The notes under the pieces are model-generated. The model did not search any database. It was given only the letters and a program-made list of their open reading frames with translations, and had not been told where the DNA came from. A stretch of DNA of 64,000 nt, from the NCBI RefSeq assembly GCF_030068505.1, contig NZ_JAQOSO010000104.1:1-64000 (forward strand), read 5' to 3'. The position numbers and the translations under genes were made by a program. This DNA comes from Roseofilum capinflatum BLCC-M114 (GTDB taxonomy: Bacteria > Cyanobacteriota > Cyanobacteriia > Cyanobacteriales > Desertifilaceae). Within the stretch, counting starts at the first letter, position 1. Every line of letters starts with the position of its first letter. Shown one piece after another: positions 32,450 to 47,083 of the stretch.

Positions 32450-35077
32450 ATGATTCCTAGTTCACTCCTCCCGTTACAGCCCCATCCAGAGCAAGATGTA
32501 TCCCTAGAAGCAACAGAGATTACAGACGGTATCGACTGGTTAAGCTTCCATCGAGTATGGGGGCAATTGAGCGATGAGGTGATTGAGGCGATCGCCAAAT
32601 CCCTACGTCTGCTGAAAGTCGAACCCAACCAAGACATCTATCATGAAGGTCTAGAACCGATTGGGTTATACCTGATCAAATGGGGTTCGGTAGAGATTTA
32701 TCGCTCTTCCTTGGTGGGCAAAACCCATATTCGCTATTACAGCGCGGGGGAACTGTTTGGCTATATTCCTTTAGCTCTGAACCAAAAAACGGCGACTTAT
32801 AATACGAATGCGGTGGCGATCGCCAAAAGTGAACTCTGGTTTCTCAGTCAAACGGACTTTGAGCAGCTCACCGATCAATATCCTCCCATCGAAAAAGCCT
32901 TCAATACCTTTCTAGCTCAAGATTTAGAGCATTTTGCAAATCGCATCGCCACCGAACAAATCCGCATCCAAGGATTACAACCGTTTATTCGTCCCATCCC
33001 CACCGATAACCTGATTATCGGCAAAAGTAAAGTCAGCCAAAAACTGGCCGCCCAGATTGAAAAAGCGACCCTAGACCTGAAACCGATTCAACTCCAATCC
33101 CCTCCCGGAGGCGGAAAAACCTTTCTCGCGGGCTATATTCATCACCGTTCGGGGATTAAAGACCATCCTTGGGCTGAAATTGACTGTGCCTTACTTCCCC
33201 GTGATGAGAGTGGGGCCCTGAATACAGATAATCTGTTTGGCCGGGTGGGTCAACAATTGGGGGTAATTGAACTACTGGAGCGAGGAACCCTGTTAATTGC
33301 CAATTATCAGCTCCTGAGCCAAAAAGACCGCGATCGCCTGTTAGACTATCTGCAAACGAACACCCTTACCCCCAACCCCGAAGGCCCCCCGATCCAGTCC
33401 TGGGTACGCTTGATCCTCAGTAGTCCCTCCTCCCTCTCCTTGGGGGATATCCCCAGTCACTCGATCAAACTCTCCTCCCTGAAACAGCGCAAACTGGATA
33501 TCCCTAGTTTTGCCCGCTATTTCCTGGATAAATACTGCCAAGAAAGCCAGCGATCGCCCGTAAAACTCAGTCAAGCGGATTTACGCCGTCTGATTAGCTA
33601 CGACTATCCCGCCAATATTGCTGAACTCGAAAGCATCCTCAAACGGGCGGTGGTCATGACTCCTCCCGAACAAGACATTATTTCCGAACAAGTCCTCTGG
33701 TCGGTTGAATCGAAAAAAAATGCCTTTCGTGTCGATTTACTCAATCAACTGCCCTGGTTGCGTCGATTTCTGCTCAGTGATTGGTGGCCAGAACGGTTCT
33801 GGGTTATCGTCATGCTCCTGTTTATCCCTGTCACCCTCATGGGTTATCTGGGCCCCCAAACCCGTGACTCTAGCATGACGCTCAATCTCTTTTGGGCCTG
33901 GTGGTGGCCCTTCTATCTATTGCTTTTCCCGATTATTGGTCGGTTGTGGTGTGCCGTTTGTCCGTTTATGGTGACGGGAGAATGGATCAGAAAAATCTCT
34001 CTATGGATTTGGCCCCGTAAACTGCTCCCTTGGCCGACTAAATGGATGAATCGCTGGGGAGCATGGCTACTCTGGGCCGGGTTTGTGGCCATTTATCTCT
34101 GGGAGAAACTGGCGGATTTGCCCCATACGCCCCATCTCTCCTCTGATTTATTGCTGATTATTACTGCCGGTGCGGTGATTTGTAGCCTGATTTATGAGCG
34201 CCGTTTATGGTGTCGGTATCTCTGTCCCATTGGTGGGATGAATGGTATGTTTGCCAAACTGGCCTTGACGGAGTTGCGATCGACTCAGCAAATTTGTGGC
34301 AGTCAATGCAGCACGTTTGGCTGTTACAAAGGCAGTGATGCGACTCCGGTGACGTTTGCCGACTCCCTACCGAATGAGGGCCAAGCTACCGGGGGATGTC
34401 CCCTCTATTCCCATCCAGCCCAACTGCGGGATAACCGCGATTGTGTGCTGTGTATGACCTGCTTAAAGGCTTGTCCGAATCGCTCGGTACAGTTCAACTT
34501 GCGGTTTGTGGCGGCGGATTTGCTGGAAAATCATCAGCCGTTTTGGGCAGAAGTGGCGCTGTTGCTGCTTTTGTTCGGTGGGGTGTTTATGCATTCTGGC
34601 GATCGCATTTTAGGCTTTTTTGGTCTCGATAGCGCTCTGATTACCGGACAACCCTGGTTTATGGCTTTGCCGGTGGTGCTGGTGTTGCTGAGTATTCCTT
34701 GGTTTTTAACCTATGGGGTTCATGCGATCGCCCGATTCTTTGACCGGGACATGCCCCCCTATTTGGTCACCATCTACGCCTATCTACCGATGACGTTGGG
34801 AGCCAATTTAGCCCATTATATCCCAGCAGCCATGACAGAAGCCGGGCAACTGCTGCCTGTTACAGCTCGCACGTTTGGCTTTTCGGGTTCGGCTTTGCCG
34901 GTGTTGACCTGGAGTGGAGATGTGGCATCTTTTTTACAAGGGGTAACCCTATTGGCGGCGATCGCCTTGAGTATCTATCCCCTATTCAAAATTACCCAAC
35001 GCCCGCTCTGGAGCAACCTGCCCCATCTATTCCTGATGGCAGCATTAACCTTTATCTTTTTCCAACTGCTGTTATAG
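32450..35077 (+). CDS. cNMP-binding / AAA-like / polyferredoxin membrane fusion protein
   Basis: An 875-residue protein. It has a cyclic-nucleotide-binding domain (about 30-165), an AAA domain like that of sigma-54 activators (about 185-420; Walker A S-P-P-G-G-G-K223-T), then a NapH-like membrane part with Fe-S motifs. These include WCAVCP, WCRYLCPIGG, CGSQCSTFGC and a full 4Fe-4S site C665-x2-C668-x2-C671-x3-C675-P, with further membrane helices to the end. The Walker B position reads GTLLIANY with no Asp-Glu, and the sigma-54 contact loop GAFTGA is missing. It therefore cannot be a classical transcription activator and is more likely a ligand-gated redox protein. The start follows a 0.7-kb repeat-rich spacer. 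Confidence 0.83.
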   Translation: MIPSSLLPLQPHPEQDVSLEATEITDGIDWLSFHRVWGQLSDEVIEAIAKSLRLLKVEPNQDIYHEGLEPIGLYLIKWGSVEIYRSSLVGKTHIRYYSAGELFGYIPLALNQKTATYNTNAVAIAKSELWFLSQTDFEQLTDQYPPIEKAFNTFLAQDLEHFANRIATEQIRIQGLQPFIRPIPTDNLIIGKSKVSQKLAAQIEKATLDLKPIQLQSPPGGGKTFLAGYIHHRSGIKDHPWAEIDCALLPRDESGALNTDNLFGRVGQQLGVIELLERGTLLIANYQLLSQKDRDRLLDYLQTNTLTPNPEGPPIQSWVRLILSSPSSLSLGDIPSHSIKLSSLKQRKLDIPSFARYFLDKYCQESQRSPVKLSQADLRRLISYDYPANIAELESILKRAVVMTPPEQDIISEQVLWSVESKKNAFRVDLLNQLPWLRRFLLSDWWPERFWVIVMLLFIPVTLMGYLGPQTRDSSMTLNLFWAWWWPFYLLLFPIIGRLWCAVCPFMVTGEWIRKISLWIWPRKLLPWPTKWMNRWGAWLLWAGFVAIYLWEKLADLPHTPHLSSDLLLIITAGAVICSLIYERRLWCRYLCPIGGMNGMFAKLALTELRSTQQICGSQCSTFGCYKGSDATPVTFADSLPNEGQATGGCPLYSHPAQLRDNRDCVLCMTCLKACPNRSVQFNLRFVAADLLENHQPFWAEVALLLLLFGGVFMHSGDRILGFFGLDSALITGQPWFMALPVVLVLLSIPWFLTYGVHAIARFFDRDMPPYLVTIYAYLPMTLGANLAHYIPAAMTEAGQLLPVTARTFGFSGSALPVLTWSGDVASFLQGVTLLAAIALSIYPLFKITQRPLWSNLPHLFLMAALTFIFFQLLL

Positions 35078-35213: not shown

Positions 35214-36155
35214 ATGAAAATTTACCAAAACATTACCGAACTCATTGGCGCAACGCCCCTAGTCCACTTGCGCCACCTGCCCAAAGCCTTTAATTGTCAA
35301 GCCGAAATTGTCCTGAAATTAGAGGGCATGAATCCGGCAAAATCAGTTAAAGACCGTATTGCCCTCAGCATGATTACAGAGGCTGAACAAGCGGGACTCA
35401 TTACCCCTGGCGTATCTACGATTATTGAAGCCACATCCGGCAATACGGGAATAGGCTTGGCCATGGTGTGCGCGGCGAAAAACTATCGCTTAATTCTGAC
35501 GATGCCAGAGAATATGAGCCGCGAGCGTCAACAGATGGTCACTGCTTATGGGGCAGAGGTGGTGTTGACTCCGAGTCATTTGGATATGGCGGGAGCCATT
35601 CAACGGGCGAATGAGTTGCTCGCAAGTACGCCTAATTCCTTTTCTCCCCAACAGTTTAGTAATCCTGCCAACCCGAAAATCCATTACCAAACCACGGGGC
35701 CGGAACTTTGGTCAGATACGGAGGGTAAGCTAGATGTGTTGGTAGTGGGGGTGGGAACGGGGGGAACCCTCACGGGAGCGGGTCGCTATTTGAAAAAAAA
35801 GAAGCCAGGCCTTAAAATTGTGGCGATCGAACCGAAAACCAGTGCCGTTTTAAGTGGAGAAAAACCCAGTATCCATAATCTCCAAGGGATTGGGGCGGGC
35901 TTTGTCCCCGATGTCCTGCGGGTTGATCTGATTGATGAGGTGATAACCATCTCCGAGGAGCAAGCTTATGATATCGGTCGCCGTTTAGCCAAGGAAGAGG
36001 GCCTTCTCAGTGGTATTTCTACGGGGGCAGTGGTTTCTGCGGCGCTACAAATTGCCCAACGTCCAGAGCATCAAGGCCAGATGATTACGGTGATTCAACC
36101 GAGCGGAGGGGAGCGCTATTTGAGTACGGCATTGTTTGGAATGGATGATTATTAA
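35214..36155 (+). CDS. cysK: Cysteine synthase A, copy 1
   Basis: A 313-residue pyridoxal-phosphate enzyme joining O-acetylserine and sulfide to cysteine. The cofactor lysine K46 is in NPAKSVKDRI; the substrate loop EATSGNTGIG and phosphate loop VGVGTGGTLTGAGR are intact. The second copy at 46145 has a somewhat different sequence in the substrate-binding region. The upstream spacer is a palindromic repeat, so its promoter is unclear. Confidence 0.92.
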   Translation: MKIYQNITELIGATPLVHLRHLPKAFNCQAEIVLKLEGMNPAKSVKDRIALSMITEAEQAGLITPGVSTIIEATSGNTGIGLAMVCAAKNYRLILTMPENMSRERQQMVTAYGAEVVLTPSHLDMAGAIQRANELLASTPNSFSPQQFSNPANPKIHYQTTGPELWSDTEGKLDVLVVGVGTGGTLTGAGRYLKKKKPGLKIVAIEPKTSAVLSGEKPSIHNLQGIGAGFVPDVLRVDLIDEVITISEEQAYDIGRRLAKEEGLLSGISTGAVVSAALQIAQRPEHQGQMITVIQPSGGERYLSTALFGMDDY

Positions 36156-37277: not shown

Positions 37278-37733
37278 TTACTGGGTTTTGACTAAAATTA
37301 AGTCTCCTTCCTGTTTGACTTCAAAATAAGGTAAGGGTTTTTCGGCAGGAGGGGATAGAACTGCACCATCTAAACCAAATTCGGAGCCGTGACAGGGACA
37401 TTCAAATCGGTTTTCATCGGCGGACAGTTTGACGGTGCAACCTTGATGGGGACACATGGGATTGAGGGCGACTATGGTTTGGGTTTGGGGATGGCGGAAA
37501 ATAAGGACGGATTTGGGGGCGTTTCGTCGGTCTAGGATGGTTCCTTGGGTTTCGAGTTGGGGGATTGTACCGAGGGCTTGAAATCCGTCTTCGCGCATGG
37601 AGGTATCAATATCAGGGCTGTTATTGCTGGGGGGAGTTGGGGATGTTTCAGAGTTGCAAGCGGAGAGGGTGGGTGGGAGGACGCTCGCGAGTGCGCTTAG
37701 GGTCATCCAACTGATAAAGTAACGACGTTCCAT
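37278..37733 (-). CDS. Rieske [2Fe-2S] protein, exported
   Basis: A 151-residue protein with cluster motif C94-P-H96-Q-G-C99 and C112-P-C114-H115-G-S. Two Cys and two His bind the cluster, and C99/C114 are placed to form the disulfide seen in bc1/b6f Rieske proteins. The N-terminus has an RR pair and L-S-A-C26, so it may be exported by Tat and lipid-anchored. It lacks the long transmembrane anchor of PetC, so it is not the b6f subunit. It lies 19 bp after the ResC gene, suggesting one transcript with the cytochrome maturation pair. Confidence 0.85.
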   Translation of the reverse strand: MERRYFISWMTLSALASVLPPTLSACNSETSPTPPSNNSPDIDTSMREDGFQALGTIPQLETQGTILDRRNAPKSVLIFRHPQTQTIVALNPMCPHQGCTVKLSADENRFECPCHGSEFGLDGAVLSPPAEKPLPYFEVKQEGDLILVKTQ

Positions 37734-37752: not shown

Positions 37753-39438
37753 TTAGGATAGGGCTGGAGATTGGGATTGGTTTTTGAGGGTTTGTTGGCG
37801 CAGGACTACTACTAATACAAACAGGAGATCTAGGGTGATGAGGCTACCGATAATTAGTTCTGAGCCTCCGGTACTGAAGCCGTAGCTGTGTAGTCCGGTT
37901 CCGAGGACGAAGTTCACGCCATACCAGGCCATGAGGATGGTATTAAAGCTGATCGTACTGGCGATCGCCATGCCAAAGTTGCCGAGCCAACCGGCTAATC
38001 GACCGTGTAGGGGCACAATGTAGGATATGAGGGCGATTAATGCCCAGGTTTCTTTGGGGTCCCATCCCCAAAATCGTCCCCAGGAGAAGTGGGCCCAAAT
38101 GCCACCGAGGATTATCCCGGTGGTCAGGAAAAGTACGCCGACTTGGAGGATGGAATAGTTCCAGCGCGAGAGGCGGTTAATCCAGTCTTTGGCGGTGGGC
38201 TTGAATAGGTAGGCTCCTAGGAGCAGATGAGCGAAGCCGAAGGCGAGGGCAAAACTGGCGTAACCGAGGGTGATGGTGGGCACATGGACACTGAGCCAAA
38301 AGTTATCGCGGAGAACGGGAACGAGGGGTTTAATGCTGGGATCGAGGACGGCCGGGAGGCGATCGCCTAATATCAGACACAAGACAGATAAGGGGGCAGC
38401 AGCCAAGAGGTAATATTTAGCACGATGCAAGAATTCAAAGGTTACGGCGATCGCTGCAATTCCTAAACTCACCCAAATCACCGATTCATACATATTGGTT
38501 ACTGGGGGTCGTCCTGCAATTTGCATCCGCTCCCAAAACCCATATCCATGCACCGCTAACCCACTACAAAATAACCCTAATGCCACCCAATAGGCTTGTA
38601 ACTTTTCCCAGGCCAGGGTAACCAACATTACCAGGAATCCTAAAGCATACAAAATCCAGGCTTTAGTAAACCAATGCAGTCCATAAAAATGGACTTCTCG
38701 TGTTAGTTTATCTTCAGGAGGATAAACTTGAGGACTTAAGGATACCAGTTGTTTTTTCAGCCCTAAAACTTGTGCATTGAAGTCTGAAGTTACCCCAATT
38801 TGCACCGCTTGTTTCAGTTCGCCATAGGTTGATTGTAAGCTCTCAACTTGTTTCGGTGCATAGTATTCAGAAGCCTGAGCGATTCCCAGCCATTTCCCCT
38901 TCGGATTGCTGGGATGGGGAATCATGGGTAACTGGGTACTGTTCACCGTTTCTAACATTACGGCTAAACGGTCTTCTAAAGTTAGTGCTTCCCGTTGGTC
39001 TCGCGTTAAATCGAGATCTTTGGCTTGATCTTCATGGGCTTGCAAAACCAATGAACCTAGGGGAGAAGAAACCAGTTCTACAAAGGAGAAATATTTCTGT
39101 TCTGGGTTGAGTCCCAGTTGAGTTTTTAAGGGACGATAGCTGAAGAGGATAAAGGGTTCTTCGTTCCAGTCTCGGTTATTGAATAATAGGGAAAGATAGG
39201 TATCGAGATAATCTAGCTTTTCTCCGGTTAAGGGTTGATAGTCTAAACTGCCATGAATTTGAGTAACTGTTTCTCTGGCGACTGTATCCAGGGGCTTTTT
39301 GCGTCCATCGAGTTGTACAGCTAGGGTTTTGAGGGCATCATAACTGGTTTCTGGACTAGAAATGCTGCCTTTCCATGCAGGGAAGAAGCATAGAGTCAGT
39401 CCTAATGTTAAGGTGATGAAAAATTTGATCGGATTCAT
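37753..39438 (-). CDS. Cytochrome c biogenesis protein, CcsA/ResC family
   Basis: A 561-residue membrane protein. The heme-handling WWD motif WGRFWGWDPKETWALI is near the C-terminal end, with conserved histidines around it. A periplasmic N-terminal region of about 250 residues starts TLAVQLDGRKKPLDTVARETV. That extension is known from the ResC halves of NrfI-like System II proteins. ATG 39438 (MNPIKFF) follows the ResB stop by 16 bp; an upstream start would overlap ResB. With ResB it transfers heme across the membrane and attaches it to CxxCH sites. Confidence 0.87.
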   Translation of the reverse strand: MNPIKFFITLTLGLTLCFFPAWKGSISSPETSYDALKTLAVQLDGRKKPLDTVARETVTQIHGSLDYQPLTGEKLDYLDTYLSLLFNNRDWNEEPFILFSYRPLKTQLGLNPEQKYFSFVELVSSPLGSLVLQAHEDQAKDLDLTRDQREALTLEDRLAVMLETVNSTQLPMIPHPSNPKGKWLGIAQASEYYAPKQVESLQSTYGELKQAVQIGVTSDFNAQVLGLKKQLVSLSPQVYPPEDKLTREVHFYGLHWFTKAWILYALGFLVMLVTLAWEKLQAYWVALGLFCSGLAVHGYGFWERMQIAGRPPVTNMYESVIWVSLGIAAIAVTFEFLHRAKYYLLAAAPLSVLCLILGDRLPAVLDPSIKPLVPVLRDNFWLSVHVPTITLGYASFALAFGFAHLLLGAYLFKPTAKDWINRLSRWNYSILQVGVLFLTTGIILGGIWAHFSWGRFWGWDPKETWALIALISYIVPLHGRLAGWLGNFGMAIASTISFNTILMAWYGVNFVLGTGLHSYGFSTGGSELIIGSLITLDLLFVLVVVLRQQTLKNQSQSPALS

Positions 39439-39454
39439 AAATAGGTGATGGGAA

Positions 39455-40873
39455 TTATGTAAGTTTTTGGTCGAAGTTTCTGAGTGTTTTCTGAATGGTT
39501 CTACCGTAAAACATGGTAGCAATGCCGACAACAACGAGGGCGGAACCTGTCCAGGTGAGTAGGGTTATCCAGAGGGGTTCGCGTTTGACTTGTAGGGTGG
39601 ATTGGCGCAAATCTCTGGGATTCCAGGACGCTTGGGCGATTTTCCATCCCTGATACCAGGTGGGGTGGTTCATCCAAACGGTGCGATCGCTGCTAATATG
39701 CTGATGATAGTCTTGAATTTGGATTTTGCTTGTCCACATGGCGACACTATCGGAGCCTTCATTACGCTCTACGATAAAGTCTTGCAAGGCAACTTGAAAG
39801 GGAAGGGAAAAGAGTTTAGGGGTAAAAGCTGCCAGAATTTCCCCCTCTGGTGCGGAGATAGGGGTAGGTTCTCCCCAAGGGAGCCATTGTTGAGTTCCCG
39901 TTTCTGTTTCGACGAGGATAGCGGGAGTGCCTGGCAGAGTGCGATCGCCAACTGGTACAATTTGACGGTCTATCTGAGCAGGGCTGAGTTGCTCTTCTAG
40001 GGTAAGTTCAAAGTCTGCCCAACCCAGTTTAACCGGTTGATTTACCTCTAGGATACCGGATTGGAAGCCTTGAGAGGAATGGGTCGCATAATAAAGTTTA
40101 CCAGATGAAGTGGCGATCGCCTGAAAATAATTCCCCTCTGAACCCTCAGCCAGTTCTCCGAGTTTCCCCTGCGCTACCTCCTCACTCTCTACCGCACTCA
40201 ACACCAATTCAGCCGGCCCCAAACTTACCCTACGATAAGATAACGGTGCAAACGCTAACCATTGTTCTAAATCTTGTCCCATCCGCTCACTCGTTAAGTG
40301 AAACTTCAGAGCTACATTGTTCCTATTCCCTCCCTCTTTAAACTCCACCCTTTTTACCGTATTTTCTGCATAACCTAACAGAGAAAGTCCCAACACCGAA
40401 GAAGGCGAAATCGAACCATTGGGACGGATAAAAATATCCCTTTGTTCAGTTTCACCTTCAGGAGTCATCACTTCCAATAAATCGCCCTCAATCCGAATCT
40501 GATTATTCGCCCCTTGATCCTCCCGTAACGGTAACATACCCTCCAAACTCAAATGAATCACTCCCGCCGACCCCATAATAATCAAAACCAATCCAATATG
40601 AGTTAAAGCAAACCCCACTTTACGAGAGCCTCGCCAAGGATAGCGGGTGAGTGCCGAAATCGATAAATTGACCGCCAGCAGGAACATCAACATTCCAAAC
40701 CAGGGACTCTTATAAATCAGATGTTGCACCACACTTGAGCCAACTTGAGCTTCATAAATTGTGGCTCCGATTAAAATAGCAGCAATACTCCCTAGAAGGG
40801 GAACAGCAAATTGGATTGAGCCGAAAAACCCGATTAAAGGTATATTCATCTTAACGGTTTCAAGGATGATCAT
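39455..40873 (-). CDS. Cytochrome c biogenesis protein, ResB/Ccs1 family
   Basis: A 472-residue protein with N-terminal membrane helices (three between about 15 and 105), a large periplasmic domain and one C-terminal helix (about 440-460), the ResB topology. FALTHIGLVLIIMGSAGVI and the following loop are typical. It is immediately upstream of the ResC gene on the same strand. The pair lies next to multiheme cytochrome genes, so its likely clients are those. ATG 40849 is an alternative start. Confidence 0.82.
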   Translation of the reverse strand: MIILETVKMNIPLIGFFGSIQFAVPLLGSIAAILIGATIYEAQVGSSVVQHLIYKSPWFGMLMFLLAVNLSISALTRYPWRGSRKVGFALTHIGLVLIIMGSAGVIHLSLEGMLPLREDQGANNQIRIEGDLLEVMTPEGETEQRDIFIRPNGSISPSSVLGLSLLGYAENTVKRVEFKEGGNRNNVALKFHLTSERMGQDLEQWLAFAPLSYRRVSLGPAELVLSAVESEEVAQGKLGELAEGSEGNYFQAIATSSGKLYYATHSSQGFQSGILEVNQPVKLGWADFELTLEEQLSPAQIDRQIVPVGDRTLPGTPAILVETETGTQQWLPWGEPTPISAPEGEILAAFTPKLFSLPFQVALQDFIVERNEGSDSVAMWTSKIQIQDYHQHISSDRTVWMNHPTWYQGWKIAQASWNPRDLRQSTLQVKREPLWITLLTWTGSALVVVGIATMFYGRTIQKTLRNFDQKLT

Positions 40874-40999: not shown

Positions 41000-41926
41000 A
41001 TGACCTTATTCACAGCCGCAGAGGTTTTAAGCCAACTCCAGAACGGAGAATCTTTTGTAGGGGCTGAATTAAGCCGGATTAATTTAGAAGATTGTATTCT
41101 CGATGATGGCAATTTTACTCAAGCTTATCTGCGCGGCGCAAACCTATCTAGGGCCTTTTGTCAAGGAACAAATTTTTCCCAAGCCAACTTAATGTTAGCC
41201 AATTTAACCGAAACTAATTTGGTTTGTGCCAACTTATCCCATGCTGAACTCAATAGAGCTTGTTTACAGAGAGTCAATGGTCGATCGCTGCAAGCAAGTT
41301 ACACTAAACTCTACGGAGCAACCTTAGATGAATTAAATGGTATTGATGCTAATTTTTCTAAATCAGACATGAGAGAAATAAAGGCGCAAAAAGCTAATTT
41401 TAGTCGCGCCAATTTAACTCAAGCCAATCTCACCGCCTCTCAGTTAATCGAGTGTAATTTTACAGAAACAATCTTGAAATCTGCCATCTTAACACAAGCA
41501 GACATAAGCGGAAGTTTATTGATCGAAACCAATTTACAAAATTCTAACTTGTATCGATCTATATTCTTAAACAGCACATGGAACCATGCTAGTTTTTCAT
41601 CAGCAAACTTATCAGAAATTGATTTTCGTTCGAGTCAGATGAAAGATACAGAAATTTTAGGAGCAAAATGTATTAACGCATCTTTTACTGATAGTGTTCT
41701 GGAACATTGTTCTTTTTTGTCTGCTGATTTAGAGTCTGCGGTATTTGATCGAGTCAAGTTAGTAAACATCAGTTTCCAAGATGCAAATTTAGAACAGACG
41801 ATCTGGAAAAATGTTGAATTGATCAACTGTGAAGTCATCGGAGCAACATTTACAGATGCTCAAGGGTTGACCGATCTTCAAAAAAGTTGGTTAAGAAAAA
41901 ACGGAGCATTAAATGTTCCTCATTAA
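41000..41926 (+). CDS. Pentapeptide-repeat protein
   Basis: A 308-residue protein made almost wholly of A(N/D)LxX-type pentapeptides (LRGANLSRAFCQGTNFSQAN and so on), which fold as a square beta-helix. It is cytoplasmic, with no signal. The family has no general function. It is oriented opposite to both flanking gene sets and divides the ResB/ResC/Rieske group from the cytochrome group. Confidence 0.88.
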   Translation: MTLFTAAEVLSQLQNGESFVGAELSRINLEDCILDDGNFTQAYLRGANLSRAFCQGTNFSQANLMLANLTETNLVCANLSHAELNRACLQRVNGRSLQASYTKLYGATLDELNGIDANFSKSDMREIKAQKANFSRANLTQANLTASQLIECNFTETILKSAILTQADISGSLLIETNLQNSNLYRSIFLNSTWNHASFSSANLSEIDFRSSQMKDTEILGAKCINASFTDSVLEHCSFLSADLESAVFDRVKLVNISFQDANLEQTIWKNVELINCEVIGATFTDAQGLTDLQKSWLRKNGALNVPH

Positions 41927-41960: not shown

Positions 41961-42563
41961 TTATTGATAATAGTAAGCAATGATAATATGAAAAACAAGC
42001 ATAGCTAAAAACATGCTCACCAAAATAATATGAGTGTTCAGCCAAATCCCCCGTAGGTTACGAATCAACACTCCTTTAGAAATGCCTGGATTTCCACTAG
42101 GAGCAGATAAACTGAATCGGAAATAGCGCTGGGTCGATTCGAGAATCCCGGTCTCGGCAACCACTCCGACTAAAGCCGATAAAGTGACCAAGAAAAAGAC
42201 CCATAGAAAAATGGCATTAAAATTGAAACCTCGCACGCCTATAGTATGAATGAGGGTACTGCCAACTAAGGCGATTCCTAGAAAAATATGTAGGCTTCTC
42301 CAAAACTGAATACTGCCGGGAACTTTGATTTTTATTTTCCAACTTCTCCCTCGTTTGCGAAAGGTGAGCATCATTTCTAAAAAGACAAAGATAAGGGATA
42401 AATAGCCAGTAATTTGCTTATAAAGGTCACTTTGAAAGGTTAAATATAAATCAAAGTCATTTAAGCGTAGAACTGGAATATAGTTGGGACTAAAAACAAA
42501 AGGGGTGAGCAGAATAGCACAAACTACAGTTAAGACAATGAGGGTGGAAAACTTGGGTTTCAT
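41961..42563 (-). CDS. Predicted diheme cytochrome b membrane protein
   Basis: A 200-residue protein with five predicted membrane helices (about 5-24, 47-68, 87-110, 115-139, 175-199). H92 and H106 in helix 3 and H178 and H192 in helix 5 are each spaced His-x13-His. This is the geometry that bis-ligates two stacked b-hemes in cytochrome b6 and related quinol oxidases. It is therefore a candidate quinone-linked electron entry or exit point for the multiheme cytochromes upstream. I do not know a named family for it. Confidence 0.72.
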   Translation of the reverse strand: MKPKFSTLIVLTVVCAILLTPFVFSPNYIPVLRLNDFDLYLTFQSDLYKQITGYLSLIFVFLEMMLTFRKRGRSWKIKIKVPGSIQFWRSLHIFLGIALVGSTLIHTIGVRGFNFNAIFLWVFFLVTLSALVGVVAETGILESTQRYFRFSLSAPSGNPGISKGVLIRNLRGIWLNTHIILVSMFLAMLVFHIIIAYYYQ

Positions 42564-42648
42564 GGTATACAGTGGTTCGCGCTGTAGTGGAGGAATGGGG
42601 AGAGAATCCCAAGGTTGGATTCCTCCCTGAATTAAACCTAAAAATGGA

Positions 42649-43305
42649 TTAAGTTCCTTCTAGGGGTAAGTTAATAACAACACCACCCATCACATCTCCC
42701 AATTCAAAGATTTTATCGGGATAGCGTTCTTTATGGATGGGATGGCTATTATGACAGGTGACACAAGCTTCGGCGATCGCCTTATCGGGATAAATAGCAG
42801 AGTAATATTCTTGACCAGCAATTTCTCGATAATCTTTATAGGGTTCGCCCGTATCAATAACAGTTTGCATCCCCACCTCTTCAAACTCTCCTCTAGGAGC
42901 TTGTGCATCATTAATATTCCAAGGTGAAATTAAACCATACGTGAATGTACCTTGTTCAGAAGCCAGTTCTGCACCTAAACGGAACATTTGCGCGGGCAGA
43001 GGAATACCATTGGCATCTTGCCAAGCTTCCGTTGCTTCTGCGGGAACGACTCCGTTGGGTTTTTCTTGCCCTTCTAAGGTTTTCAATCGATTCACCACAT
43101 GCTTAGTATAGGCAGTACGATCGGATTCAGCGACGGCATGGATATAATCAACCACAAGAGCCGGATCGATGCCACTGGTTTGAGTCGAGCTACTGGTGTT
43201 TCCACCAGCACAAGAAACAGCAGTGAGACAAATGGCTGTCGCTAAAATGAATAAGCTGATGGTTTTCAGTTTCAGTGAACGTATCCAAGTTTGAAGAATA
43301 GGCAT
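42649..43305 (-). CDS. Tll0287-like (DUF3365) monoheme c-type protein
   Basis: A 218-residue exported protein with signal helix about 13-30 and a possible lipidation C32. One heme c site, C181-V-T-C184-H185, lies within a C-terminal ISPWNINDAQAPRGEFE...AIAEACVTCHNSHP region typical of the Tll0287-like domain, a PAS-like heme sensor or electron carrier described in cyanobacteria. It lies 30 bp downstream of the hexaheme gene on the same strand. Confidence 0.85.
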   Translation of the reverse strand: MPILQTWIRSLKLKTISLFILATAICLTAVSCAGGNTSSSTQTSGIDPALVVDYIHAVAESDRTAYTKHVVNRLKTLEGQEKPNGVVPAEATEAWQDANGIPLPAQMFRLGAELASEQGTFTYGLISPWNINDAQAPRGEFEEVGMQTVIDTGEPYKDYREIAGQEYYSAIYPDKAIAEACVTCHNSHPIHKERYPDKIFELGDVMGGVVINLPLEGT

Positions 43306-43335
43306 AGTTTATTTTCCATTGGGTGAAGAACGCTT

Positions 43336-44121
43336 TTATTCAGAGTCTGAAGCGGTTCGCTTTTCTTCTAGGGTTCTCACTAACTTCAGAGTCTCTAAAT
43401 CTTGTTGAGGGGGATGGTGAAAGTTACCCTCAATTAACTCATCATCAAAGATGCTGTTGTAGGAATATTCCAAACCGTGGCAATTCATACAAACATCTTT
43501 CACCATGCGATCGCGTGGGAGCAGGTTATAAGTGTTATTGTGATTGACAAACACGGAATTGGTATTCTCGTTAACTGTGCGGGGTAAATGGCAGGTTGCA
43601 CAGGTCACCAGATCGGGACTGGGGCGAGGCAGTCTGACGGATGCAGCAAATAAAGAACCATGTTTCGAGTCTCCATAATTGAGAGAATGGGCATCATTAT
43701 GGCATTGCAAACAAGAGTCCACAGAAGCCTTAAAGGTGTCCGGTTGATGGACATCATGGCAGGTATTGCACCCCATCACCTGTTCCCTAGCCGAGGCTTT
43801 CATCGGTAAACTCGCCATCTTTGCAGTTAAGGGAGAAAGTCCTTCAGCAGTACGAATGCCATGTTTACCGAGCAGAAACGTATCAACCTGTTGCTGATGG
43901 CAACTTTGACAACTTTCTTGGTTCGGACGAACCACAAGGGCTTTGTTTTCTCCCACTTGGTGACAGGTGGAACAGTTGACATCTGCGAGAGCGTGAACAC
44001 TGTTCTCCCATTGCTGAGTAATTTCTGTTACTCGCTCTGAGGAGACTGGGGAGGCGATCGCCCCATGACTCCAGAGCATTACCACCAGCCACAAGAGGGC
44101 GACAATCACCGGCTTCATCAT
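43336..44121 (-). CDS. Hexaheme c-type cytochrome, exported
   Basis: A 261-residue protein with an N-terminal signal (about 1-23) and six CxxCH heme sites at C50, C71, C118, C137, C174 and C211. Additional histidines (HG, KHG, VNHNN) could serve as distal ligands. No active-site pattern of NrfA or hydroxylamine oxidoreductase is recognisable. It overlaps the pentaheme gene by four bases. Multiheme cytochromes like this are rare in cyanobacteria. Confidence 0.88.
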   Translation of the reverse strand: MMKPVIVALLWLVVMLWSHGAIASPVSSERVTEITQQWENSVHALADVNCSTCHQVGENKALVVRPNQESCQSCHQQQVDTFLLGKHGIRTAEGLSPLTAKMASLPMKASAREQVMGCNTCHDVHQPDTFKASVDSCLQCHNDAHSLNYGDSKHGSLFAASVRLPRPSPDLVTCATCHLPRTVNENTNSVFVNHNNTYNLLPRDRMVKDVCMNCHGLEYSYNSIFDDELIEGNFHHPPQQDLETLKLVRTLEEKRTASDSE

Positions 44122-44765
44122 GCTCCACCCTCCAGAAACTCTTCACCCAAATCGGGTTTAGGGGGTTCGCTCTGGGTCAGGGTGACCTCTAAATTGGGCA
44201 GTTCTGGTTTCGGTAATAGGATCGGCTGATTCAAGTTTTCCCGCAAAAAACCCGTCGAAATTGACCGATGATCGTGGTAGTTATGACATCCTGCTGTCCA
44301 ACAGCCATCTGGCTCAAACCCTTGATGACTGGGAATATCCCCGGCAATGACTCCTTCATGACAAGCCATACATAAATCAGGTTTCAGGTGAACTCCCCGA
44401 CCAAACATATGTACATGCTCTGCATGACAAGCGGTACAGGTTAGAACATCTAAGTTTTCTAAATATTCTGCCCAACGGGGATCGCGAAACTTTTTTGGGC
44501 CGTGAGCATCGCTTACTAGCTCCGCTTCATGACAGCGCATACAGGTTTCATTACTGACTGGCTTAAATCCTTCATGACAGGAGCTACAGGAGGCTTCAAT
44601 TAAGGTGTGGCCGTCTGATGTCACTCCCGGAAGAAAGATTTGACGTTGATCTAAGGCAAACGCAGCAATTCCCCAAACCAGTAGCAAAACCACCACTGCA
44701 ATAATGGCCGTCTTGACTTGAAGGAGATTTTTTAGGAAAGGAAATCGCTGGGAATTGCTGGTCAT
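44118..44765 (-). CDS. Pentaheme c-type cytochrome, membrane-anchored
   Basis: A 215-residue protein with one N-terminal membrane helix (about 17-38). It has four CxxCH sites at C60, C75, C110 and C132, and a fifth of the C-x4-C-H type (C155-W-T-A-G-C160-H), as found in cytochrome c3 folds. It carries a proline/acidic tail. It sits three bases after the globin gene and overlaps the hexaheme gene by four, so the three are an operon. It could relay electrons from the membrane to the hexaheme protein. Confidence 0.88.
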   Translation of the reverse strand: MTSNSQRFPFLKNLLQVKTAIIAVVVLLLVWGIAAFALDQRQIFLPGVTSDGHTLIEASCSSCHEGFKPVSNETCMRCHEAELVSDAHGPKKFRDPRWAEYLENLDVLTCTACHAEHVHMFGRGVHLKPDLCMACHEGVIAGDIPSHQGFEPDGCWTAGCHNYHDHRSISTGFLRENLNQPILLPKPELPNLEVTLTQSEPPKPDLGEEFLEGGA

Positions 44766-44768
44766 GAC

Positions 44769-45200
44769 TTAAGAAAGTTGGGTTTCTGCTTGGTCGTATT
44801 CAGCCCCTTCTAGCATCAGAGTTGTAATCGCTTGATAGGCCTCAATCCAAGCTTGTTTGACTTCAGGAGTCCAGCGATCTCCTAAGTATTGTTCAAAGGT
44901 TTTTAACAATGCTCCGCCAACTAAGGGATAATGGGCAGGAAGGGCCCCATACTTAACATGACGTGCCCCTAAGCCTTTGAGGGCATCACTTAAGGCTTCT
45001 GGCTTCCGCAAATTTTCGACTGTGAAGACCAAAGATTGCAAAAGCATTTGCTTTTGTTTTTTCATATCCGTATGTTCAAATAGGGGCTTGGCTTCCGGAT
45101 TATCCGTGAATAAATTTTTATAAAAGCTCTCTACAAATTCGTTAGCTTCTGGCTTTACTTTTTCAAAGCTTTCTTCCAGGAGTTCGACTTTTAGTGACAT
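44769..45200 (-). CDS. Single-domain globin, flavohemoglobin-like class
   Basis: A 143-residue globin. The proximal heme ligand is likely H81 in LGARHVKYGALPAHYPLVGG, with Y27 and Q in helix E (KQKQMLLQSL) as distal residues. This is the Tyr-B10/Gln-E7 pattern of bacterial globins of the Vitreoscilla and flavohemoglobin type that handle O2 and NO. There is no reductase domain, so an electron donor is required. It leads an operon of multiheme cytochromes, with only three bases to the pentaheme gene. Confidence 0.88.
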   Translation of the reverse strand: MSLKVELLEESFEKVKPEANEFVESFYKNLFTDNPEAKPLFEHTDMKKQKQMLLQSLVFTVENLRKPEALSDALKGLGARHVKYGALPAHYPLVGGALLKTFEQYLGDRWTPEVKQAWIEAYQAITTLMLEGAEYDQAETQLS

Positions 45201-45349
45201 TTTTGGTGTTCTCCTTATAAAGCCCCGGTCATAGAAAATCTATTTTTTTCTTGTCCGAGATATAACTTCTATATATCCAGATCGTTCTAGGATATTCTGT
45301 AATATCAACTACGAAAAAACTCGGATTTTCAATAAAATACATAGAATTA

Positions 45350-45364
45350 ATGCAAAAAATGCAT
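45350..45364. promoter_or_regulatory. Inverted repeat ATGCA-N5-TGCAT upstream of the globin operon
   Basis: A perfect 5-bp inverted repeat around AAAAA lies about 150 bp before the globin start, in the only spacer that can hold this operon's promoter. The half-site vaguely recalls the NO-responsive NsrR operator (AAGATGCATTT), but no NsrR gene is in the window and the rest of that consensus is not matched. It is a candidate operator only. Confidence 0.3.
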
Positions 45365-46144: not shown

Positions 46145-47083
46145 TTATTCTGGATCTTGGAATAAGGGGGTACTCAGATAGCGCTCGCCAAAACTCGGTT
46201 GAATCACCACAATTAATTTACCGTCATTTTCTGGACGCTTGCCGACTTGGATGGCGGCGCAAACCGCAGCACCACTGGAAATCCCAGAGAGTAAGCCTTC
46301 TTCCTTGGCTAAACGCCGTCCATAGGCGATCGCCTCCTCATCAGAAACGGTCACTACTTCATCAATCAAATCTACCTTCAAAACCTCTGGTACAAAGCCA
46401 GCCCCAATCCCTTGAATTTTATGGGGCCCTGGTTGGCCGCCCGATAATACAGGAGAAGTAACCGGTTCCACGGCGATCGCCTTAACTTTCTCGCTTCTCT
46501 TCTTCAGCACCTCGGCCACCCCAGTAATTGTCCCCCCAGTACCCACACCCGAAATAATCATATCCACCTGGCCATCCGTATCTGCCCAAATTTCCTCAGC
46601 CGTGGTTTTGCGGTGAATCTGGGGATTGGCTGGATTTTGAAACTGCTGCAACATATAAGCATTGGGCATTTCTTCGGCCAGTTCCATTGCTCGGCGAATA
46701 CATCCCCCCATCCCCTCTGAACCCGGAGTCAGAATCAACTCAGCACCATAAGCCTTTAACATAGCTCGCCGTTCTGCACTCATGGTTTCTGGCATTAACA
46801 AAATTAACCGATAGCCTCGCGCAGCCGCTACCATCGCCAAGGCAATTCCTGTATTCCCAGAAGTCGGTTCCACCAATACGGTCTTTTCTGGAGAAATCGA
46901 CCCTTCTTTTTCCGCCATATCAATCATGTTGACCCCAATCCGGTCTTTGACTGAGGAAGCTGGGTTCATACTTTCGAGCTTAACCACAATTCTGGCCACA
47001 CAGCCCTCTGCTTGAGGAATACGGTTGAGTTGAACTAAGGGAGTATGTCCGACTAACTGGGTAATATCTTGTGCGATTTTCAT
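46145..47083 (-). CDS. cysK: Cysteine synthase A, copy 2
   Basis: A 312-residue protein, with cofactor lysine K46 in [24 protein letters not shown] and [16 protein letters not shown]. It is clearly a paralog of the copy at 35214. Both have all catalytic residues. It is a single gene on the minus strand, downstream of the SGNH hydrolase gene. Confidence 0.92.

Follow-up and report, generated by a model that had tools for sequence, protein, structure and literature searches.

A cyanobacterial cassette of globin and multiheme cytochrome genes and its probable link to nitrate assimilation

The cyanobacterium Roseofilum capinflatum BLCC-M114 carries, in the 64,000-nucleotide stretch analysed here (the window; contig NZ_JAQOSO010000104.1), a cassette of five genes that encode a globin, a pentaheme and a hexaheme cytochrome c, a Tll0287-like heme protein and a membrane diheme cytochrome b. 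Judged from sequence, the link of this cassette to nitrate assimilation is well supported. The reading that we favour, at a probability of about 0.5, is that it constitutes a globin and transmembrane-heme module of nitrate/nitrite assimilation, probably for the handling of nitric oxide (NO). In such a module, the diheme cytochrome b would span the membrane, with an 11-heme, all-bis-His c-type wire and a Tll0287-type heme lipoprotein at the outer face and the globin at the inner face, where it would be tethered by a C-terminal tail in most cyanobacterial carriers, the window copy excepted; the proteins may form a physical complex. Expression would be turned on by NtcA plus a second, probably NtcB/nitrite-type, regulator. 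The globin would most likely destroy NO that leaks from nitrate/nitrite reduction (Fe(II)-O2 + NO -> nitrate), and its ferric heme would be re-reduced via the cytochrome b, which in Gammaproteobacteria would draw electrons from NADH via a fused NirB-type flavin/[2Fe-2S] module. A long CcsA and a CcsB would mature the multiheme proteins. Cyanobacterial nitrate assimilation is regarded as cytoplasmic and ferredoxin-driven; if our reading is true, a nitrogen-controlled membrane multiheme system adds an electron-transfer branch to it, and this system travels with its own cytochrome c synthetase through a minority of cyanobacteria and some Gammaproteobacteria.

The five-gene unit and its heme proteins

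All five genes lie on the minus strand. A single-domain globin of 143 amino acids (aa) with no signal sequence seen (44769-45200; Pfam Globin, 9.8e-19) is followed by a pentaheme cytochrome c of 215 aa with an N-terminal membrane anchor, four CXXCH motifs and one CX4CH (44118-44765), a hexaheme cytochrome c of 261 aa with a signal-like start and six CXXCH (43336-44121), a Tll0287-like (sCache_heme) protein of 218 aa with a lipoprotein-like start and one CXXCH (42649-43305), and the 200-aa membrane diheme cytochrome b (41961-42563). A first-pass annotation of the window had described these genes as one run with gaps of 3 base pairs (bp), a 4-bp overlap, 30 bp and 85 bp, and with 12 covalent heme sites; the coordinates of the open reading frames (ORFs) reproduce both the run and the spacings, and a motif count returns the same 12 sites (five, six and one in the pentaheme, hexaheme and Tll0287-like proteins). 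A sigma-70 promoter and terminator scan of the window cassette gave a signal no higher than that of shuffles.

The cassette is one conserved but rare unit, found in a minority of cyanobacteria. The hexaheme, a single-copy gene in the window genome, was found in 4 genomes when the phylum was sampled evenly (386 genomes), and in 8/59 relatives, among them all six genomes of the genus searched, where it carries no stops; the nearest named hexahemes include those of R. halophilum (96%) and R. acuticapitatum (87%). When named genomes were scanned, 73 loci matched the hexaheme, comprising 58 with cyanobacterial titles (L010-L067), two from Arenicella (36-37% identity) and 13 weak, partial matches (21-34%). 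The order globin, pentaheme, hexaheme, Tll0287, cytochrome b is complete on one strand in 45 of the 58 cyanobacterial loci; in the other 13, the absent genes fall at or beyond contig ends, as judged from contig ranges. At three loci (L019, L039, L049), the end of a tailed globin can still be read from the bases just before the pentaheme gene. Median gene distances across the 58 loci are 20, -4, 74 and 161 bp, with starts set by the longest frame. This conservation of order and heme motifs, together with the stop-free copies of the genus, rules out an ordinary or remnant cluster, although pseudogenised relics of the cassette do exist farther off.

The two multiheme proteins match Pfam Cytochrom_c3_2 (pentaheme 1.8e-6, hexaheme 3.3e-11), and every cysteine in them, 10 and 12 respectively, belongs to a heme motif, the CX4CH of the pentaheme reading CWTAGCH. 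In 2000 residue shuffles, the mean number of CXXCH was 0.031 for the pentaheme and 0.02 for the hexaheme, with maxima of 1 and 2. When 51 cyanobacterial pairs were aligned jointly with 22 gammaproteobacterial proteins, each of the 11 heme motifs proved to be conserved in 73/73 sequences or pairs, as did 11 further histidines, counting the columns present in the window (pentaheme 53, 88, 117, 147 and 164; hexaheme 43, 87, 125, 145, 154 and 194). The penta- and hexaheme together correspond to a single 11-heme module, which Gammaproteobacteria encode as one protein. An alternative joint alignment, of separate cyanobacterial penta- and hexahemes with the gammaproteobacterial undecaheme, was dropped because the pentahemes fell on the hexaheme half. 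The 11 invariant histidines amount to one candidate second ligand per heme, the pairing being putative; no open catalytic heme is thereby evident, and the 11-heme part is more likely an electron wire than an enzyme.

The fourth protein belongs to the Tll0287-like family (PF11845), with an E-value of 2.2e-15 and 57.8 bits against a cut-off of 24.1. As in other members of the family, it is monoheme and its CXXCH is kept, specifically in 58 of 59 cassette proteins, the remaining one being cut by a contig end; unlike the usual member, it is encoded by the fourth gene of a multiheme operon and has a lipoprotein-like start, which a loose pattern finds in 54/58 and a stricter pattern missed in the window copy. 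The sole Pfam match of the fifth protein, to DUF4405, lies under the cut-off (E 0.0046). The annotation's suggestion of a diheme cytochrome b nevertheless gains firm footing, since His 92, 106, 178 and 192 are invariant in 54/54 cyanobacterial and 21/21 gammaproteobacterial sequences (75/75). The two histidines of each pair (92/106 and 178/192) stand 14 residues apart and, with five hydrophobic segments placed by hand, would put one b heme near each membrane face. This cytochrome b is specific to the cassette: it was found in 9 of the 59 genomes, which are the eight hexaheme carriers and one relic. At two loci (L019:2720-3628 and L027:12442-13374), the protein bears an N-terminal extension of about 100 aa that looks winged-helix-like by eye; the extension of L019 has no Pfam match.

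Conduits of a diheme cytochrome b and a multiheme cytochrome c are known from inner membranes, for example CbcL and Hmc. Like these, the cassette would join transmembrane b hemes to a periplasmic multiheme chain; unlike them, it has a globin partner, nitrate-type control, a NirB-type NADH module in the gammaproteobacterial form and a 5+6 heme layout with one CX4CH. Its parts belong to known families and the conduit is of a known kind, and to our knowledge the combination is undescribed: in keeping with the annotation's view, the open-access papers searched contained no named, characterised complex for this gene set and no account of its tie to nitrate use.

Alternatively, the periplasmic multiheme part might itself be a reductase of nitrite, NO or hydroxylamine, and the globin might act apart from it in protection; we regard this as unlikely. 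A profile search of the PDB with the hexaheme matched hydroxylamine oxidoreductase-like and nitrite reductase chains (best 1.7e-8), the same search with the pentaheme gave no match to 0.01, and the nitrate-type promoter and neighbours described below would suit an enzyme as well. In addition, Tll0287-type domains joined to signalling parts can bind NO, according to the available text of PMC12889525, although in that text the stand-alone Tll0287-type protein of Pseudomonas putida bound neither O2 nor NO strongly. The resemblance of the hexaheme to NrfA, octaheme nitrite reductase and hydroxylamine oxidoreductase is, however, a weak profile similarity, and it differs from these enzymes in having a candidate second histidine for every heme motif, conserved in 73/73, and no CXXCK among the motifs counted. 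Furthermore, nirA or nirB adjoins the system in some loci, so that another nitrite reductase is present there.

Probable nitrogen control and nitrate-gene neighbours

GTAN8TAC is the consensus of the nitrogen regulator NtcA. In the window, a consensus match upstream of the globin gene (GTAGTTGATATTAC, 45299-45312, minus strand) constitutes a candidate NtcA box, and 52 bp 5' of it stands a palindrome of the T-N11-A type (ATGCATTTTTTGCAT, 45350-45364, minus strand) at offset -164 from the globin start. Across 43 non-redundant upstream regions of 500 bp (from 49, after removal of near-copies), GTAN8TAC precedes the globin in 30, against 51 of 443 control upstreams from the same loci, with cassette genes and CcsB excluded and redundancy kept. 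Thirteen of the 51 control matches precede pentapeptide genes, and four represent one gene that faces the globin in Moorena loci. Enrichment is confined to the spacer of 8, other spacers from 4 to 12 giving 0-3 of 43, and the motif ranks first of 704 dyads (64 half-sites, 11 spacers; p 1.9e-16). A TAN3T -10 element follows the box by 19-25 nucleotides in 18/43 regions, compared with 8/443 controls. A second GTAN8TAC in the window, at 44079 (minus strand), lies inside the hexaheme gene with an ATG-N9-CAT 48 bp away; the spacing is different and the pair is probably due to chance.

The second-ranking dyad, ATG-N9-CAT (p 6.5e-14), belongs with the upstream palindrome: ATGCA-N5-TGCAT, with at most one mismatch and within 600 bp, occurs in 23/43 regions versus 21/442 controls, other spacers giving 1-7 of 43. 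ATG-N9-CAT and GTAN8TAC form 26 pairs no more than 150 bp apart, of which 17 (in 17 loci) are spaced at 52-53 bp, one at 54 and five at 30-31, which is about two helical turns shorter. Five occurrences of the 52-53 bp composite were found outside cassette upstreams in the loci searched. Two of them precede nirA, one in L060 (-162/-110) and one in the relic genome G247 (-167/-115); a third, in L030, has a pentapeptide gene on one side and nrtA, about 0.7 kb away, on the other. In the available text of PMC7354497, NtcB is required besides NtcA for nitrate genes in Nostoc, and that of PMC5318462 describes a Synechocystis ntcB mutant as unresponsive to nitrite.

The gammaproteobacterial form of the system provides a second view of its surroundings. 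The Arenicella undecaheme was matched in 26 of 369 genomes of the Arenicella class (centre included), and no match was found in a plasmid search with the gammaproteobacterial undecaheme. We examined 22 loci (L068, L069 and 20 further stretches, which represent 21 of the 26 genomes and, in addition, the genome of L069), of which 21 encode a single undecaheme protein with ten CXXCH and one CX4CH; the exception, L130, has 11 CXXCH and none of the partner genes. Upstream lies the gene of a fusion protein, complete copies of which measure about 640-730 aa. For Arenicella, Pfam identifies in it a pyridine-nucleotide oxidoreductase and a BFD-type [2Fe-2S] domain, and its C-terminal part is homologous to the cytochrome b. 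Residues 30-494 match positions 2-475 of 794 in the NirB model TIGR02374, with 372.7 bits, below the cut-off of 578.35. The fusion thus resembles the flavin and BFD [2Fe-2S] half of NirB and differs from NirB in that the C-terminal siroheme/nitrite half is absent and a cytochrome b domain follows instead. Downstream of the undecaheme gene comes Tll0287, and in 10/22 loci a small cytochrome c.

Nitrate-assimilation genes accompany the set in 8 of these 22 loci (L111, L112, L115, L120, L121, L122, L124 and L126), in stretches of at most 10 kb per side that are often shorter; of the 13 loci covered for 7.3 kb or more in each direction, six have nitrate genes. In L112, the order on one strand is globin, fusion, undecaheme, Tll0287, nrtA, nrtB, nrtC type, nirB, nitrate-reductase type. 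Matches above the model cut-offs include nrtB in L112 and L120, ntrCD in L115, L120 and L126, and nirB in L112 and L122; a truncated reductase is unclear, its best match being Fdh-alpha (1.6e-47) and the NasA type scoring 1.5e-42. NrtA types carry Pfam NMT1_2, a family wider than nitrate transport, in 7/7 tested, including six gammaproteobacterial loci. Five submitted NrtA-type proteins had no NCBIfam match at 1e-20, and the nrtB of L121 and of L126 had none at 1e-60. The calls in L111, L121 and L124 are based on NMT1_2 and on similarity to L126 and L115, and L116, with a generic match to ATP-binding cassette (ABC) proteins only (69 bits), was not counted. On the cyanobacterial side, nirA passes its model in L060 and G247 (814 and 811 bits against a cut-off of 594), and both nrtB and nrtC of L030 pass theirs; nitrate genes near the cassette or its relic were noticed in these three alone, with none seen by eye in the window. 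The annotation had left the chemistry among NO, nitrite and oxygen; promoters and neighbours together point to the nitrate/nitrite regulon.

A candidate NtcA box upstream of the cassette, and the globin next to nif genes in Nostoc, would also be compatible with a nitrogen-fixation helper, an NtcA-controlled set whose globin and wire keep oxygen low around nitrogenase. This idea appears highly improbable. Of the carriers searched (43 of the 58 loci submitted), 20/43 have nifH above the cut-off and the window genome does not, so that nitrogen fixation is not needed; among the relatives, nifH occurs in 3/8 with the hexaheme versus 15/51 without.

The globin and the proposed path of electrons

The globin genes that lie 5' of the pentaheme vary in length and agree in their heme pocket. 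Among 51 of them, the window included, 21 encode one domain, 24 two, four three, one four and one five, and 39 of the 51 proteins end in a hydrophobic C-terminal tail; the window globin has one domain and no tail. The Tyr/Gln distal residues named in the annotation hold throughout, with Tyr 27, Gln 49 and His 81, which we take to be B10, E7 and F8, kept in 89/89 aligned domains. An additional globin lies downstream of the cassette in five loci (L018, L027, L039, L040 and L046), and a downstream "globin" of L043 proved to be a miscalled Rieske protein. In Gammaproteobacteria, a globin lies in or adjoins the set in 16/22 loci. Thirteen of these are of the same family as the cyanobacterial ones, that of L112 lying upstream; the other three are truncated globins, and the one of Arenicella adjoins a ferredoxin-type reductase. 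Two globin families in one slot argue for a needed globin function.

NO removal is favoured as this function because of a parallel in Bradyrhizobium and of a review. In the available text of PMC4724949, a single-domain haemoglobin and a flavoprotein of a nitrate-assimilation operon of Bradyrhizobium remove NO made by nitrate reductase. As in the narK-bjgb-flp-nasC cluster of B. japonicum described there, which pairs the globin with a FAD/NAD(P)H protein and an ABC nitrate transporter under nitrate control, a single-domain globin is present in the cyanobacterial unit and a globin in 16 gammaproteobacterial loci. Unlike Bradyrhizobium, the cyanobacterial carriers have no separate Flp-type oxidoreductase among their recurrent neighbours, and the gammaproteobacterial module is fused to the cytochrome b; in turn, the same text names no cytochrome b, multiheme wire or Tll0287 protein for Bradyrhizobium, where control is by NasS-NasT. 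In the review (PMC3820574), reductases of the FNR type are put forward as the electron source of such globins, and a gene pair of a truncated globin and a reductase is cited.

Several observations weigh against a globin-based NO module of nitrate assimilation. NO removal alone leaves the need for 11 periplasmic hemes unexplained. Six of the 22 gammaproteobacterial loci have no globin and 14 have no nitrate gene in the stretch covered, some of them on short contigs; their promoters (19) gave no clear motif, the best p being 0.0017 over 704 three-base dyads. Relatives of the globin are also found apart from the cassette: 28/59 genomes have a match, and 20 of these lack the hexaheme. Thirteen of the 43 cyanobacterial upstream regions lack GTAN8TAC and 26 lack the 52-53 bp pair, the window box has no exact TAN3T -10 element, and L011, from a species of the window's genus, has neither motif in exact form. 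The second palindrome is presumably NtcB-like, TGCA-N5-TGCA being the NtcB site of the nirA promoter. No long CcsA was found in 5/49 cassette genomes (L027, L033, L044, L049 and L051). Finally, structure predictions from 45 sequences each were unusably poor, with a mean predicted local distance difference test score (pLDDT) of 51.8 for the hexaheme and 49.0 for the pentaheme. An FNR-type site occurs in 1/19 of the gammaproteobacterial promoters against 1/175.

Use of the globin as a marker of the cassette was dropped, since 20 of the 28 globin-matching genomes are without the hexaheme. Of twelve sites of such related globins that were inspected (one in the carrier G051), five have the tail and four a fusion to pentapeptide repeats. 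In cyanobacteria without the cassette, at L139, L142, L143 and L146, proteins of about 610-640 aa join tandem globin domains to such repeats.

More tentatively, the cassette may equip nitrate assimilation with a transmembrane heme port of its own: a separately matured 13-heme wire (2 b + 11 c) would connect the periplasm with cytoplasmic nitrate/nitrite/NO chemistry, and a membrane-bound globin array would act as its NO-/O2-reacting head. The open-access papers searched describe no assimilatory system with such a periplasmic electron arm, and none unites these cytochromes with a globin, a promoter of the nitrate type and a synthetase dedicated to the set. The direction in which electrons would move bears on the annotation's proposal of a chain from quinol. 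The quinol start is unsupported in Gammaproteobacteria, because the cytochrome b end there carries the NirB-type NADH module.

The same module, followed by cytochrome b and the 11-heme protein, could suit an overflow valve for times of nitrate use, through which cytosolic reductant is exported to the periplasm or the outside and taken up there by ferric iron, by electrodes, or by a cytochrome c and an oxidase; in line with this, a small cytochrome c follows in 10/22 loci. Outer-membrane barrel genes follow the gammaproteobacterial set at L111:2278-3516 and L122:5846-7051 (Alginate_exp) and at L125:6294-7496 (OprD), L111 and L122 being loci in which the globin is missing. These three loci are, however, the only ones with confirmed barrels, no outer-membrane cytochrome was noticed beside them, though no systematic search was made, and export by itself leaves the globin and the nitrate link unexplained; it seems a rather unlikely role. 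Flow in the opposite sense, with periplasmic electrons reaching cytoplasmic nitrate reduction via the cytochrome b, is improbable. It finds support in the homology of the NirB-type module to the electron-input half of nitrite reductase and in L112, where nrtABC-type, nirB and nasA-type genes follow the set on its own strand. Yet ferredoxin serves the nitrate and nitrite reductases of cyanobacteria, and NirB usually draws on NADH, so the natural direction would be outward.

Synthetase genes, relics and other neighbours

Beside the cassette lies a second System II cytochrome c maturation pair. Its long CcsA-type cytochrome c synthetase (37753-39534, minus strand) has 560 residues from the likely start at 39435, its ResB/CcsB partner occupies 39455-40873 (minus strand), and the respective Pfam domains are Cytochrom_C_asm (107.9 bits) and ResB (51.9 bits). 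The window genome holds a shorter CcsA elsewhere (open frame of 346 aa), and a CcsA match was found in 39/39 relatives searched, mostly only the shorter protein of about 330-400 aa. In 386 sampled genomes, apparently the same draw as for the hexaheme, the long CcsA occurs in six: all four hexaheme carriers and 2 of the 382 others (G020 and G247). Of the 49 cassette genomes searched (50 of the 58 loci submitted), 44 have it, some of them away from the cassette stretch, for example in L018, L034, L058 and L064. The promoter composite faces CcsB from 139-140 bp in L031 (~7635, minus strand) and L045 (~7493, minus strand); the synthetase genes may therefore share nitrogen control.

Other genes recur nearby. 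Among 61 loci (L010-L069 and the window), thioredoxin-like genes were counted in 40, CcsB in 33, CcsA in 30, a Rieske protein in 25 and ChaN in 11. In the window, a small Rieske protein with a lipoprotein-like start (37278-37733, minus strand) and a pentapeptide-repeat protein with no role shown (41000-41926, plus strand) are such neighbours. Three genomes look like former carriers, judged by what they retain, the ChaN, thioredoxin-like and pentapeptide genes being named by eye. G020 (L131, G020:C1:1387000-1406500) has no multiheme genes and keeps CcsB, a stop-bearing CcsA, Rieske, ChaN, thioredoxin-like and pentapeptide genes; its cytochrome b gene is broken into two parts that lie apart, with an unrelated ORF between them. 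G247 retains the long CcsA, thioredoxin-like, ChaN and pentapeptide genes. G024, a relative, retains CcsB, Rieske and the long CcsA, and at a separate site a globin with a tail lies next to a thioredoxin-like gene.

Cysteine-synthase-type genes flank the region in the window, at 35214-36152 (plus strand, named by eye) and at 46148-47083 (minus strand). Beside one of them, at 32450-35074 (plus strand), is the gene of an 875-aa protein in which a cyclic-nucleotide-type sensor, an AAA/sigma-54-activator-like part and NosR/NapH-like membrane iron-sulfur parts can be made out by eye.

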